From positions 1 to 40,356 of IMG/VR virus record IMGVR_UViG_3300034073_001277: 40,356 bases of DNA. One strand, written 5' to 3'. Below, piece after piece: positions 32,623 to 40,356 of the stretch. The notes beneath the pieces were generated by a model that saw only the letters and a program-made list of their open reading frames with translations, did no database searches and was not told the origin of the DNA. Source of the DNA: a virus. Both the position numbers and the translations under genes were made by a program. Numbering within the stretch: the stretch's first letter is position 1; every line of letters begins with the position of its first letter.

Positions 32623-32894
32623 ATACGTCCAAGCTGCCCTTTGCATCGCCCTGCAACTTCTTCCAAGCTCATCAGCCAATAACGAACAAGTTTTTTCGCA
32701 TATTGATCCTTTTTTTGTATCGCATACTTAAAAACCGATTCCATTCGGTCGTACTCTTTTTGCGTGTACTTTGCCGAAGGTGCCTTTTTGGTTATTGTCT
32801 TTTCTACTTGCATCAATTGCCAGAACTCAAATATCGATTCCTGTTCCTTTTTGCTTAATGCAAGCAACGCTTTCATTACGTCTAGTGCGTTCAT
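32619..32894 (-). CDS. Hypothetical protein (91 aa)
   Basis: The 91-residue, Lys/Glu-rich helical protein overlaps the HNH gene by ATGA. It contains EQESIFEFWQLMQVEKTITK and a C-terminal SLEEVAGRCKGQL. Its codon use is more A/T-rich than average, like that of the HNH gene; the two may have arrived together. Confidence 0.55.
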   Translation of the reverse strand: MNALDVMKALLALSKKEQESIFEFWQLMQVEKTITKKAPSAKYTQKEYDRMESVFKYAIQKKDQYAKKLVRYWLMSLEEVAGRCKGQLGRI

Positions 32895-33388
32895 CTTTCA
32901 CTCGTCTTTCTTGCTCTGTACACGCCTCGAATTATTTGCCGAACATAATCTCGAGAGATTCCATACCTTGCGGCAATAACCGAGCTTTTTTCAGTAGATT
33001 CCAGGATCTCCTCAATCTGCCTATCAGTCAGTCTTGCTCTTGGGTTCTTCTCTCCGATCTGATCGAACCCAAGTACATCCCTTGCGTGTTTGTTGTTTTC
33101 TCTAATATTCGTGTATTCCAGATTCTCAGCTCGATTGTCGAGCTTGTCCCCATTCTTGTGATTGATATGCGGACGATCATCTGGAGCTTTCCCTAGATAT
33201 GCCTCAGCCACCAGACGGTGAATAAGATAGCTTCGAGGCTTCTTTGGAACCGATCCATCGTAAAGGCTCACGGTCAAATAGCCTTTGCTGTTCCTTCCAC
33301 CTCGTAATGTCTTGTTGGTAATCGTGCTGAAAATCGTCCCATCTCGACGAATCTCATATCGGTCTAAGAATGTCGGAGTTTCACTCAC
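32891..33388 (-). CDS. HNH homing-type endonuclease (NUMOD4/HNH)
   Basis: The 165-residue protein has an N-terminal NUMOD4-like segment (DRYEIRRDGTIFSTITNKTL), the HNH core HRLVAEAYLGKAPDDRPHIN continuing HKNGDKLDNRAENLEY, and a C-terminal helix-turn-helix (SSVIAARYGISRDYVRQI). Such free-standing HNH enzymes move between phage genomes. GTG 33388 is chosen because GAGG is 7 nt upstream. It lies just downstream of the 88-nt pseudoknot RNA. Confidence 0.85.
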   Translation of the reverse strand: MSETPTFLDRYEIRRDGTIFSTITNKTLRGGRNSKGYLTVSLYDGSVPKKPRSYLIHRLVAEAYLGKAPDDRPHINHKNGDKLDNRAENLEYTNIRENNKHARDVLGFDQIGEKNPRARLTDRQIEEILESTEKSSVIAARYGISRDYVRQIIRGVYRARKTSER

Positions 33389-33409: not shown

Positions 33410-33497
33410 GCCCCAACGCATTGTCTTGGCAGTCAACCGTGCAAGAACGCACAAAAAGACACAACACGTTGGGGCTTGGATTGTTCGTTGACTGCCA
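33410..33497 (-). ncRNA. 88-nt double-helix pseudoknot RNA, copy A
   Basis: On the minus strand: helix a TGGCAGTCAAC (33487-33497) pairs with 33427-33437 (11 bp, perfect); helix b GCCCCAACG (33467-33475) pairs with 33410-33418 (9 bp, perfect); the order is a-b-a'-b'. An inner GTGC/GCAC hairpin lies at 33439-33452 before a'. Loops are 11, 29 and 8 nt. ATTTT follows the last arm. A promoter-like sequence lies at 33511-33538. A 21-codon ORF (33432-33497) runs through part of it. Confidence 0.7.
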
Positions 33498-33510: not shown

Positions 33511-33538
33511 ATCTTAGCGTCTCTCAAGTGTCCGTCAA
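33511..33538 (-). promoter_or_regulatory. Promoter-like sequence for RNA copy A
   Basis: TTGACG (33533-33538) and TAAGAT (33511-33516) are 16 nt apart on the minus strand. The predicted start near 33504 is 7 nt before the first arm of the pseudoknot RNA. The -35 box overlaps the stop codon of the RusA-like gene. Confidence 0.55.
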
Positions 33539-33900: not shown

Positions 33901-34646
33901 AAAATCTCATCCCCTGCCCAGTCGGCGAAGTCCGAATGTCTCCTGGCCGTCTGATCGACCCAGGCCGTCATCTGCTCTTGCTCCTTCGGTGTGGGCGTTC
34001 CAAATCTGAGCGGAAAATGAAACCGATCATCGAACGTGTCAGGTGCCTTTTTCGCGTTTGGACACCTGCACGATACCGCAGCCCCTAGACGCCGTGGCGT
34101 GCGTTTGAAGCGACGATACCGATCAACCTCACGAGGATGCCAAACCATCACGACGCCGCTGTCATTGCACGTAGGACATGAGTAGCGAGGTTCGGAAGCT
34201 TTTGGATCGCTCCCAGCTCTTTTCAAAATATCGGAAAGCTTTTGTTCGTGTTCCTCGTCGGTAATCTGCCCCTCGCGTTTAGCAAACCCAAGCTCCCGAG
34301 CCTCTCGCAGTAGCGGCCCGATCGGCTGACACTTACCGGATCGGCTCGCCGACTGAAGAATCTCGCGGTCTTTTGCTCTCTGCATTCGTTCCGATCGTCG
34401 CACCTTGCAAAACTTCCGAATCATTCCTGGTAGCCTTTCACGCTCATATGCCTCTGGCGGCTCTGCGTCGCCGCGTAACATTGCCTTCGACGCATCGAAG
34501 CAATCACCCATCTCGCAGTCAGAAAGGGCCTCAAGCCAAGCGTCCAGCGTCTTTTTCGGGTCCGTGTTGGCATCCATCCATCGACGCATTTCCGGAAAGC
34601 ACTCGTAGTGGAACGCTATCCAGTCTCGGAACTCTTTCGTGTTCAT
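33897..34646 (-). CDS. Putative helicase loader / replication protein (P-like)
   Basis: The 249-residue protein follows the initiator-like gene and overlaps it by ATGA. Its N-terminus (DWIAFHYECFPEMRRWMDAN) resembles phage replication P/loader proteins, and the C-terminal half has a zinc site CPTCNDSGVV with SCRCPNAKK. Assignment rests on position and general pattern, not on a clear ATPase motif. Confidence 0.55.
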   Translation of the reverse strand: MNTKEFRDWIAFHYECFPEMRRWMDANTDPKKTLDAWLEALSDCEMGDCFDASKAMLRGDAEPPEAYERERLPGMIRKFCKVRRSERMQRAKDREILQSASRSGKCQPIGPLLREARELGFAKREGQITDEEHEQKLSDILKRAGSDPKASEPRYSCPTCNDSGVVMVWHPREVDRYRRFKRTPRRLGAAVSCRCPNAKKAPDTFDDRFHFPLRFGTPTPKEQEQMTAWVDQTARRHSDFADWAGDEIL

Positions 34647-35434
34647 TCGTCCTCCCAGGTTTCTCGTGGTCCAAATGCTTCTTCTAGCAACTGCTCCGTG
34701 GTCCTGCCTTTGTGTCGCGGACCCTCTCGGCTCTGCCGCTGAGCGGCTCTTTGTTTTTCAAAATCGTTGTCCGAATCGAGTAGGGTCTTCGCATCTTTGA
34801 GAATTGAAAACTCGATGTCTCGGATTGACTTCGCGATTCCACGACGTTCGATGTCCATGAGCATCGTTTCTGCTCGAATCGGATCGACCTTTCGGCCTGT
34901 AATCGACTCCAGCCATCCGCACCATCGTTCCCAGTGAGGCAGTAGCCCTGGATCGATCTTTTCTTTTTGGATTCCGCCCGCTGTGTGTGTGTGTGTATTT
35001 TCTTTCCTTCTTTCTTTCTTTTCTTTCTTTCCTTCTTCTATTGTGTCCACTGGTTGTCCATCCGTTGTCCATCCGTTGTCCACTGGTTGTCCATCCGTTG
35101 TCCATCCGTTGTCCATCTGTTGTTCGCCATTTTGAAAAAACGACCATTTGACTACGGAAATTACGGTAAATCTGTTGTTCGCTTTTACGGAAATAATGCC
35201 TAACTGCTCAAGCTTTTTAATGTGTCGATACCATGACGAAGGAGTCATCCCGAGCTGTTGACTTCCTGCCTCTTTTCCGGTCGCAAAACTGCCTGGCTTG
35301 ATCTGTTCGCCGCCAAACCAGCCAGCTTTCCAGTTGGCTCGCATTAGGCACCAACAGAACACACGCCACAAAACTGCATCGCTGAATACTTGGCTATCGA
35401 GTGCCTGTCTGTGCAGCTTGATCCAGTCACTCAT
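34643..35434 (-). CDS. Replication initiator with winged helix (O-like)
   Basis: The 263-residue protein has an N-terminal winged-helix domain (KLHRQALDSQVFSDAVLWRV; LGMTPSSWYRHIKKLEQLGI), a repetitive middle (MDNGWTTDGQPVDNGWTTDG), a Lys/Glu tract (GKKEKKERRKENTHTH) and a C-terminal helical domain. The repeated middle is encoded by 11-bp iterons, as in the lambda O gene where the origin lies inside the initiator gene. It likely binds those iterons and recruits the loader and helicase. Confidence 0.75.
   Translation of the reverse strand: MSDWIKLHRQALDSQVFSDAVLWRVFCWCLMRANWKAGWFGGEQIKPGSFATGKEAGSQQLGMTPSSWYRHIKKLEQLGIISVKANNRFTVISVVKWSFFQNGEQQMDNGWTTDGQPVDNGWTTDGQPVDTIEEGKKEKKERRKENTHTHTAGGIQKEKIDPGLLPHWERWCGWLESITGRKVDPIRAETMLMDIERRGIAKSIRDIEFSILKDAKTLLDSDNDFEKQRAAQRQSREGPRHKGRTTEQLLEEAFGPRETWEDE
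34983..35044. other. Pyrimidine/purine-asymmetric tract beside the iterons
   Basis: The plus strand is (TG)n followed by a long CT-only run (TTTCTTTCCTTCTTTC and similar), while the minus strand is purine-rich. Within the initiator gene it encodes KKEKKERRKENTHTH. A purine/pyrimidine-skewed, AT-rich tract next to iterons suits a DNA-unwinding element. Confidence 0.5.
35045..35121. repeat. Seven tandem 11-bp iterons, candidate origin
   Basis: Seven contiguous 11-bp units on the plus strand follow the form GTCCA(C/T)(T/C)(G/C/T)GTT. The order is ACTGG, ATCCG, ATCCG, ACTGG, ATCCG, ATCCG, ATCTG in the variable part, so the first six form two 33-bp higher repeats. Spacing by one helical turn is typical of initiator-binding iterons. 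The array lies within the initiator gene. Confidence 0.78.
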
Positions 35435-35470
35435 TGGTCGCCTCTGTAAATTTCAACACTCAAATAAAAA

Positions 35471-35558
35471 AACCACGTCCCCGGCGTTGGCGACCCAAAC
35501 GCACAGGAGATTGCGTGAAGATGCCAGGGACGTGGTTGTGTCTTGTGTAGGTCGCCAA
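35471..35558 (-). ncRNA. 88-nt double-helix pseudoknot RNA, copy B
   Basis: On the minus strand: helix a TTGGCGACC (35550-35558) pairs with 35487-35495 (9 bp); helix b AACCACGTCCC (35527-35537) pairs with 35471-35481 (11 bp); the order is a-b-a'-b'. An inner ACGCA/TGCGT hairpin lies at 35499-35516. Loops are 12, 31 and 5 nt. The last arm runs into T7, an intrinsic terminator. Same 88-nt length and layout as copy A, with different helix sequences. Confidence 0.75.
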
Positions 35559-35566
35559 ACCTGCAA

Positions 35567-35761
35567 TCATTTTACCGGATCGACTCCGGAAAGGAAACTC
35601 CGCTCGATCGCTTCCACGACCTCTTTCGGGAGCCCTCCGTAGAACCGAACCAGGTCCTCTAGTGCGTCCTTTTCGGCTATGTCCCTAGGCTGTCCACCGT
35701 CGTACTCACGGATCGCTGCTCTCTCCTGCCATTCCTCGACCATATTTTCGACGTAGCTCAT
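35567..35761 (-). CDS. Small helical protein (64 aa)
   Basis: ATG 35761 is preferred (GAGG upstream) over GTG 35764. The product is acidic and helical (VENMVEEWQERAAIREYDGG; DLVRFYGGLPKEVVEAIERS). It overlaps the upstream zinc-ribbon gene in a different frame by about 56 nt. Family unknown. Confidence 0.6.
   Translation of the reverse strand: MSYVENMVEEWQERAAIREYDGGQPRDIAEKDALEDLVRFYGGLPKEVVEAIERSFLSGVDPVK
35569..35597 (-). promoter_or_regulatory. Promoter-like sequence for RNA copy B
   Basis: TAAAAT (35569-35574) is a good -10 box; the -35 at 17 nt spacing is the weak TTTCCT (35592-35597). The predicted start near 35562 is 4 nt before the first arm of the pseudoknot RNA, an arrangement parallel to copy A. 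Confidence 0.4.
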
Positions 35762-38511: not shown

Positions 38512-39435
38512 CTAAAATAAGGTCGCGTGTGATTGCTCTTTTTCTTCTGCTTCAAGGAACTTGCAGGCAGCGTCAAAGTAACTTTTCTTTAGCTCGATGC
38601 CGACGAACTTCCTGCCGACTCGAAGCGATCCCACGCCTTCGCTTCCAATGCCAGCAAATGGGGATAGCACCACATCGCCGGGGTTCGTCCAAAGCTGCAA
38701 GCAACGATCTATCACATCAAACTGCAATGGGCAAACGTGCCGCTCGTCATTGTTATCGCGTCCCATCCTTGCGTTCAGCGTGTTTGTCTGGTTGATGTCC
38801 ATCCAAACCGGCGATGCGTAACGCTGCCAAATATCAATTGACAGATTGCCCTTTTCTCGCTTGTCAAACTCCTCTTGATCGCCAGCGAATCGAGTGAACC
38901 CGCCCGATATAGGCTCATCATTTTTGCCTGGCTTTCGGAATGTGCAAAGGTAATCTGGAATCCCCTGACGGCTCATTGACGAATCTTTAACCACTTGCTT
39001 GTGCAGCAATCCAAGTGCTTTGGTTCTCTGCATGGCGACAACTGGATCTTTCCAAATGCAGACTTCGCTGTGATAAATCCAATCGTTGTTTACGAATGTT
39101 CGGATAATATCCCCGCGAAAGTCTCGCAGTCCGATGTATCCGTTGTGCGTAATTGTGCTTGGCAGATTCATGCAATGCACGCTGACAAGCCTACCCGGCT
39201 TAATTACACGATAAAGCTCTGAAACAAGAAACGAGAAATGCTCGAAGAACTGCTCATCGCTTTCGCTGTTTCCCATGTCGCGTTCGCTGTCGCTGTAAAC
39301 GTAGAGAGATGCAAATGGCGGTGAGAATACCGAAAAGTGGATGCTGTCGTCTGGTATCGACTTGATGACCTCGCAGCAATCGCCGTGATAAAGATGCCAC
39401 CCATCGCCGCTTGCTTGATCTATGACTTCATTCAT
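38512..39435 (-). CDS. DNA methyltransferase (N6-adenine or N4-cytosine)
   Basis: The 307-residue enzyme has the catalytic motif SPPF (motif IV, about residues 38-41) before the cofactor-binding motif LSPFAGIGSEG (motif I) near the C-terminus, so it is of the beta-type order. It uses S-adenosylmethionine to methylate adenine N6 or cytosine N4. Phages use such enzymes against restriction or to mark their DNA. Its ATG overlaps the helicase stop by ATGA. Confidence 0.9.
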   Translation of the reverse strand: MNEVIDQASGDGWHLYHGDCCEVIKSIPDDSIHFSVFSPPFASLYVYSDSERDMGNSESDEQFFEHFSFLVSELYRVIKPGRLVSVHCMNLPSTITHNGYIGLRDFRGDIIRTFVNNDWIYHSEVCIWKDPVVAMQRTKALGLLHKQVVKDSSMSRQGIPDYLCTFRKPGKNDEPISGGFTRFAGDQEEFDKREKGNLSIDIWQRYASPVWMDINQTNTLNARMGRDNNDERHVCPLQFDVIDRCLQLWTNPGDVVLSPFAGIGSEGVGSLRVGRKFVGIELKKSYFDAACKFLEAEEKEQSHATLF

Positions 39436-40356
39436 TGCTGACCTCCTAAAAAACTTGGAACACTTAGCTTCACTGAAGTGGTGTAAACCGCCTTCCCTTT
39501 ATCGATCCCGATCTCTTTCATCGTAGCCTCTCGCATTGCCTCAGCCATTCCAGCCTGCATAAGCTGGTGGTCTGTTTCCTTGTTGGCAATCACGGACTGG
39601 ATACCGGATTCACTATCCGCCAGAACGATATCCACATTTACCGAATTGCGTTGACCAAAACGCCAGCACCTGCGAACTGCTTGGTAATATTGCTCGAAGC
39701 TATACGACAATCCCGCGAAAACTTGGTGATCGCAGTGTTGCCAGTTTAATCCGAAACCTGCGACTGTTGGCTTGGTAATTAGGCACCGAGCCTCGCCATT
39801 TTCAAATGCTAGTAGCATCTCCTCCTTTCGTTTTTCTGGATGCGATCCACGAATCTCGACCGCATCGTCGATGCGTTCAATCAACGCGTCCGCCTCGTAA
39901 TCGGTATCGCACCAAACAACTGCAACGCGGCTTTTGTCTGCGACAAGCTCAGCTGAACGCTTGGCCCTTGCCGTGCATGTCAGCCGCTTTTCCTCGTGGA
40001 TGTTTGTTGCGGATAGCCCCGAGATGTTGAATAGCATTCCATCGGGAGCGTCGTCTTGCTCAACCTCGACAACATGCCGCTCGATAGTCAGCTCCGGCAA
40101 TGCGTACCCGTCATCGCTGCCGCCGATGTCGCTTGGCTTCGACAAGCACACAGCCCACGTTGCCACCCATTCCCAAAACTTCTTCTTCGCGTGACCACGC
40201 AAACGCCATTTGCTTGTATCGCCTCCATCGTGGACGAAATACTTTGAAAGCATATCCTCACGATCGCACACTCCAAGGAACTCGGCATGGCTGCCAAGCT
40301 CCGTGTGATCGTTCGGCGATGGTGTCGCGGTACACGCTAGCCGGTATGGTGTCCGT
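39432..40356 (-). CDS. SNF2-type helicase, C-terminal part (joins 1..591)
   Basis: This is the C-terminal part of the helicase whose start lies at 591; the frame is continuous across the contig junction. It contains the second RecA-like domain with VAVVWCDTDYEADALIERID, GEARCLITKPTVAGFGLNWQ (motif V) and YYQAVRRCWRFGQ (motif VI, with the arginine fingers). The stop overlaps the methyltransferase start. Bases 40230-40356 repeat 1-127. Confidence 0.85.
   Translation of the reverse strand, partial: RTPYRLACTATPSPNDHTELGSHAEFLGVCDREDMLSKYFVHDGGDTSKWRLRGHAKKKFWEWVATWAVCLSKPSDIGGSDDGYALPELTIERHVVEVEQDDAPDGMLFNISGLSATNIHEEKRLTCTARAKRSAELVADKSRVAVVWCDTDYEADALIERIDDAVEIRGSHPEKRKEEMLLAFENGEARCLITKPTVAGFGLNWQHCDHQVFAGLSYSFEQYYQAVRRCWRFGQRNSVNVDIVLADSESGIQSVIANKETDHQLMQAGMAEAMREATMKEIGIDKGKAVYTTSVKLSVPSFLGGQQ
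40230..40356. repeat. Terminal direct repeat, copy 2 (circular contig overlap)
   Basis: Exact copy of 1-127. See the first copy; the true genome length is 40,229 bp. Confidence 0.95.

Follow-up and report, generated by a model that had tools for sequence, protein, structure and literature searches.

The OOP RNA of phage lambda is short, terminated and located beside a replication-initiator gene, and HDV-like ribozymes have the strand order a-b-hairpin-a'-b', in which a' adjoins the hairpin. IsrK of the Gifsy-1 prophage is reported to be a short RNA that also acts in trans (PMC4825925). The allele-specific pairing segments of the c4 antisense RNA of P1/P7 (RF01695) underlie heteroimmunity (PMC12197685). 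The STAXI motif is a pseudoknot found near genes for DNA-handling proteins (PMC2864571).

In the 40,356-nt stretch of viral DNA analyzed here (the window), two 88-nt RNAs with the same fold and unrelated arms, copy B (35471..35558) and copy A (33410..33497), are read on the minus strand, which is the coding strand of the region. In copy B, the S1 5' arm UUGGCGACCUA (nt 1-11; 35548..35558, minus) is followed by the loop L1 carrying the family motif ACAA (35538..35547, minus), the 15-nt S2 5' arm (35523..35537, minus), the junction J2/3 with AUCUUC, an instance of the family motif UUCU/UCUU/CUUC (35517..35522, minus), the 5-bp hairpin P3 with the loop AUCUCCUG (35499..35516, minus), the S1 3' arm (35487..35497, minus), and the S2 3' arm (35471..35485, minus). 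In copy A, the S1 5' arm (33487..33497), the 15-nt S2 5' arm (33461..33475), P3 (33438..33453), the S1 3' arm (33427..33437), and the S2 3' arm, followed by ATTTT (33410..33424), are arranged in the same order on the minus strand. In both copies, P3 adjoins S1' and S1' adjoins S2'.

The two 88-nt RNAs had been recognized in the initial annotation, and their shared orientation, helix order and loops (12/31/5 nt in copy B, 11/29/8 nt in copy A) were confirmed on the minus strand. In this unrefined form, copy B reads as 9 nt, 12, 11 nt, 31, 9 nt, 5 and 11 nt. The 20 bp assigned earlier to both copies holds for perfect crossing repeats. After refinement, in which folding of the minus strand extended S2, each copy has an S1 of 11 bp crossing an S2 of 15 bp with P3 inside, so that the copies are more alike than was previously thought. 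The S1 of copy B reaches 11 bp only when its two final pairs, U-G and A-U as taken from the sequence, are counted. The minimum free energy fold includes S2 and P3; since S1 is pseudoknotted, nested folding is unable to show S1 and S2 together. The whole window contains no crossing perfect inverted repeats better than copies A and B, whose 20 bp was equaled in one of 60 Markov-shuffled windows and surpassed in none.

The two RNAs share their strand order with HDV-like ribozymes. However, the family to which they belong lacks P4 and J4/2, has only 0-8 nt (L3) between a' and b', and has helices that are too long. A self-cleaving ribozyme was rejected, as there is no matching anatomy and no P4/J4/2 with a catalytic C between P1' and P2'. 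The layout is compatible with that of IsrK, a precedent for the production from one promoter of a short, terminated RNA and, by read-through, of an mRNA encoding downstream phage genes (PMC4825925). IsrK is linked to antirepressor/antiterminator genes, whereas the present family is linked to replication initiators. Like c4, the family consists of small phage RNAs with allele-specific pairing segments, and c4 is a functional analogue of the self-specific control in trans considered below; however, c4 pairs with a separate target, whereas the family arms pair with each other. The family resembles STAXI in being a pseudoknot near genes for DNA-handling proteins, but occurs as single units per locus, in contrast to the two or three tandem repeats with UUCG tetraloops of STAXI (PMC2864571). 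The RNAs also resemble OOP as short, terminated-type phage RNAs beside a replication-initiator gene, but OOP is antisense to cII (PMC12197685) and the family RNA lies on the sense strand.

No Rfam family matched the window at the gathering threshold. At E ≤ 10, the window segment and six loci gave no match with a meaningful E-value, and none to c4 or isrK; Rfam was assumed to hold an isrK model. When the element regions were used to search the DNA of named phages and plasmids, nothing was found. The element was also absent from 16 regions of named phages that carry a related KilA-N, helicase or initiator gene; the initiator genes of VvAW1 and Bordetella IFTN1 directly adjoin the gene before them. 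No such motif was found in the open-access literature. The RNAs in front of DNA-replication genes thus apparently form an undescribed phage family, as had been proposed initially, with further members found and no match in Rfam.

Members of the family and tests of the fold

As suggested in the initial annotation, related phages were searched by descriptor together with shuffled controls. Phage contigs were drawn from IMG/VR by their shared genes for RecT, exonuclease, helicase or initiator; because the DnaD-like query found no viral contigs, RecT, the helicase and other initiators served as queries. Approximately 4.1 Mb (4.09 Mb) was scanned. The descriptor comprised two crossing helices, loop limits and G-U scoring, favoring long Watson-Crick helices, and did not include P3. 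At a score of at least 22, 27 distinct matches were obtained in 4.09 Mb compared with 0 in shuffled sequence, which supports the proposed family, and 19 of the 27 were followed by a T-run of at least 4. With L1 widened and a score of at least 21.5, there were 43 matches against 5 in shuffled sequence. Some matches scoring at least 22 are not members (L049, L156, L271 and L280), as they resemble coding sequence or repeats without a T-run. The true members, which come from uncultivated or unnamed phage contigs, without exception lie on the gene strand and precede a gene. Two RNAs were present per phage wherever both sites were covered (the window, L076, L077, L079 and L081).

Additional crossing-helix matches in L063, L068 and L223/L224 fit the family only partially. 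At 343-430 of L160, a leader with a hairpin, a T-run and a bulged possible S1 lies directly before a SNF2 helicase gene; it may be a divergent relative. The contig of the window apparently ends within a helicase gene (39432-40356), and a third RNA before the helicase, comparable to s1 in L076, could therefore lie beyond its end.

A second search used the promoter sequence AAAAGTACAATTTAGCGA alone and ignored the fold. The conserved promoter context was found with 17 distinct leaders, every one of which folds into the pseudoknot; they represent four arm sets. The remaining AAAAGTACAATTTAGCGA matches sit in unrelated surroundings, at least one of the contigs being truncated. The descriptor scan and the promoter search together yielded 14 unrelated arm sets of one architecture. 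Over these sets, the eight outer S1 pairs are Watson-Crick in 112 of 112 cases, with 3-4 pair types each, and the eleven S2 pairs are standard in 153 of 154. A conserved fold with covarying arms, as first proposed from the two copies alone, is thereby substantiated. The pairing counts are partly circular for arm sets found by the descriptor, but not for types iii and iv, since these were found by the promoter. G-U pairs are absent from the outer S1 (0/112) but present in S2 (10/154). Their absence might reflect triplex contacts or pairing in trans, although the descriptor scoring disfavors G-U.

Further tests were made on parts outside the arms. P3 is stronger than in shuffled loops (combined p ~7e-10 over 12 families), and in the s1 family two-sided compensatory changes occur in P3 while S1 and S2 are invariant. 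ACAA is found in L1 of 12/14 alleles (p=0.0004), and UUCU, UCUU or CUUC at the start of L2 in 11/14 alleles, compared with 1.7 expected. Nested folding of growing transcripts gave S1 and P3 first, and S2 and P3 once S2' was made. By our own reasoning, P3, S1 and S2 could stack coaxially on the uninterrupted 3' strand, J2/3 then spanning S1 and L1 returning past S1 and S2; this is sterically possible but stretched.

These results demonstrate both the fold and the family. S2 with T7 alone resembles a long-loop terminator, so that copy B could be read as an ordinary terminator with a second helix arising by chance; yet scores of at least 22 are absent from shuffles of 4.09 Mb, and 14 arm sets as well as the P3 and motif tests oppose this explanation. 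Already contradicted by the shuffled-control scan and the fold-blind promoter search, it was rejected and is hardly tenable.

Two pairings suggested by the sequence of copy B were not retained. UCUCCU in the inner loop, previously likened to an anti-Shine-Dalgarno sequence, is confined to copy B, the other loops being AUUC, UUCU, AUCU and GUCU. The S1 3' arm was also considered as an anti-Shine-Dalgarno sequence, in that GGUCGCC of copy B might form pairs with GGCGACC upstream of the DnaD start codon; no corresponding match was present in L094, L097 or L176.

Promoter-like and terminator-like sequences and downstream genes

A -10-like hexamer TAAAAT (35569..35574, minus) is located 10 nt before S1 of copy B and overlaps the upstream stop codon, and an imperfect, operator-like palindrome, TTTCCGGAGTCGATCCGGTAAA (35571..35592, minus), extends across this promoter. 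Copy A is preceded by the promoter-like TTGACG-16-TAAGAT (33511..33538, minus), 13 nt before S1. A -10-like hexamer (TAAGAT, TATAGT, TACAAT or TAAAAT) was observed 6-13 nt before S1 in 11/12 families. Palindromes cover several family promoters; a phage-wide operator was rejected, since neither the window nor the other phage sequence examined contains a second palindrome closely matching any of them.

The last arm of copy B enters a T7 run (35466..35472, minus), and the terminator assigned to it in the initial annotation stands, as a terminator-like sequence, for this copy. The criterion for an intrinsic terminator, a G+C-rich stem with a U-run, is met with U5-U7 in B, the s1 and s2 types, L144 and L263. 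The T-run is not universal, however; it is weak (~U3) in alleles i and ii and in most of iii and iv, which form a four-allele clade.

The end of S2 lies 15-36 nt upstream of a start codon in 12/12 families measured, leaving little room for another promoter. This short distance could be explained by the close packing of phage genes alone. Copy B is followed by a gene for a DnaD-like helicase loader (phrog_2514; 34643..35434, minus), whose start codon is 36 nt after S2, and copy A by an HNH endonuclease gene (32891..33388, minus) with a GTG start 21 nt after S2. Most downstream genes encode replication initiators, which belong to unrelated types (B, s2 alpha, s2 beta, i, ii, L248 and L254); besides the HNH endonuclease of copy A, the remaining products are a SNF2-type helicase (s1), a regulator with KilA-N (L263) and a protein of unknown function (L144).

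In L245, L344, L246 and L346, a small hairpin enclosing an AAGG ribosome-binding site occupies the first ~20 nt after S2'. Its sequence varies between alleles while the pairing is kept (UUAGUAC-AAG-GUGCUAA and UAUCAC-AAG-GUGAUA). Such a Shine-Dalgarno-enclosing hairpin is clear only in some alleles (ii and part of iii).

We favor, with a probability of roughly 0.58 and without expression data, the interpretation that the RNA is a promoter-proximal leader limiting expression of the downstream replication gene through the S2 terminator or a structured ribosome-binding site. Transcription would start at S1 or a few nucleotides before it, the transcript ends being inferred. S1 and P3 would fold first, and S2 would then form across S1 to give a pseudoknot enclosing P3; this order in vivo is likewise an inference. 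S2 followed by U5-U7 is predicted to act as an intrinsic terminator, leaving most transcripts as a stable RNA of ~90 nt, with the replication gene 15-36 nt further on reached by read-through alone; termination itself is deduced. As the alleles of the four-allele clade mostly have U3 or less after S2, termination there is doubtful, and some of them may instead place the ribosome-binding site inside the small hairpin. The leader would hold down the initiator or helicase gene until something favors read-through, a regulation which, with its signal, is also inferred.

The same unit might instead be a stand-alone small RNA acting in trans on host genes, or one recognized by its shape by a host or phage protein, with its location incidental. 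A self-contained promoter-like/terminator-like unit of ~80-96 nt, with a fold and unpaired motifs in common and free arm sequence, would suit this explanation, but a start codon invariably follows 15-36 nt later, in unrelated clades mostly that of a replication initiator, which makes this explanation rather improbable.

Iteron-like 11-bp direct repeats, GTTGTCCATCC, are present in 6.5 copies inside the DnaD-like gene (35044..35123, minus), beside a TTTC-rich tract (34999-35037, minus), and positions 34999-35123 of the window are a putative replication origin, a role that is inferred. The initiators examined, those encoded after B, s2-alpha, type i and L248, all carry internal repeats. Besides the repeats of the window, different short repeats are present in the initiator genes of L076 (11484-11716), L142 (5527-5553 and 5848-5890) and L248 (8135-8161 and 8456-8498) that follow the RNA. 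By analogy with lambda O, these tandem repeats suggest an internal origin. The putative iterons nearby and the strictly Watson-Crick S1 could also fit interleaved inverted repeats acting as DNA, in duplex or single-stranded form, near the origin. However, the layout is strand-specific on the coding strand, with the promoter-like sequence 5', the U-run 3' and G-U pairs in S2, and a DNA feature is very unlikely. A promoter-proximal leader, on the other hand, might also restrain transcription toward the putative origin inside the initiator gene.

Exchange of arm sets between relatives

Four RNA types (i-iv) share one promoter block in the L142 clade, where an RNA type can be followed by different genes and a gene preceded by different RNA types. 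With the promoter conserved on one side of the four types and the initiator genes either conserved or exchanged on the other, it is apparent that the arms were exchanged while the fold stayed. Types i and ii are 83% identical in the upstream block, 59% in the RNA and 88% downstream, against a shuffled RNA baseline of 31%. Between alleles, promoter identity is 0.77-0.95 in 5/6 pairs and downstream gene identity is 0.83-0.88 where the gene is the same, whereas RNA core identity is 0.43-0.62, compared with 0.31 for a shuffled core. Three types of the second RNA follow a single promoter type in the L076 clade, while its first RNA had the same arm set in all 45 records, some of which overlap, with 9 distinct sequences among them. 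Because recombination joins RNA types and downstream genes in varying combinations, the RNA has no fixed gene product as its partner.

Close relatives keep the shape but trade its pairing sequences, which suggests a switch whose specificity can be exchanged. The exchange is not explained by a purely cis-acting device. Drift plus recombination is the dull account of it, and self-specific control in trans the novel one: the terminated RNA would recognize leaders with the same arms, providing copy-number feedback or superinfection immunity among phages that carry the same allele. This account is possible but doubtful. It would explain why the arms are swapped wholesale while the promoter, and often the gene, stay, with four alleles on one promoter type and three on another, and it agrees with arms that are invariant within an allele while P3 drifts and with the lack of G-U among 112 S1 pairs. 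Against it, the arms are already paired intramolecularly, and no second arm target of the c4 type was found in the phage sequences examined, which were partly incomplete; 11-mer arm matches were few and scattered (0-5 versus null means of 0.5-2.4), and trans targets in phage DNA were rejected, as none rose above background. Pairing between the two RNAs of one phage was also rejected: the cross-complementarity of A and B (10 nt, p=0.013) was not repeated in s1-s2 pairs, which had none. That these RNAs are a new phage class in which swapped arms set self/non-self control of replication, so that only phages with the same arms regulate or exclude each other, is put forward only as a speculation, somewhat weaker still.

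Since the primary sequence is almost unconserved, similarity searches are likely to miss this structured RNA family, which was recovered through its geometry and promoter. Because it precedes initiators and helicases of phage replication in several gene contexts that are unrelated, it may show how phages gate replication by RNA, and with arm sets exchanged under an unchanged fold, RNA-based self-recognition becomes directly testable.
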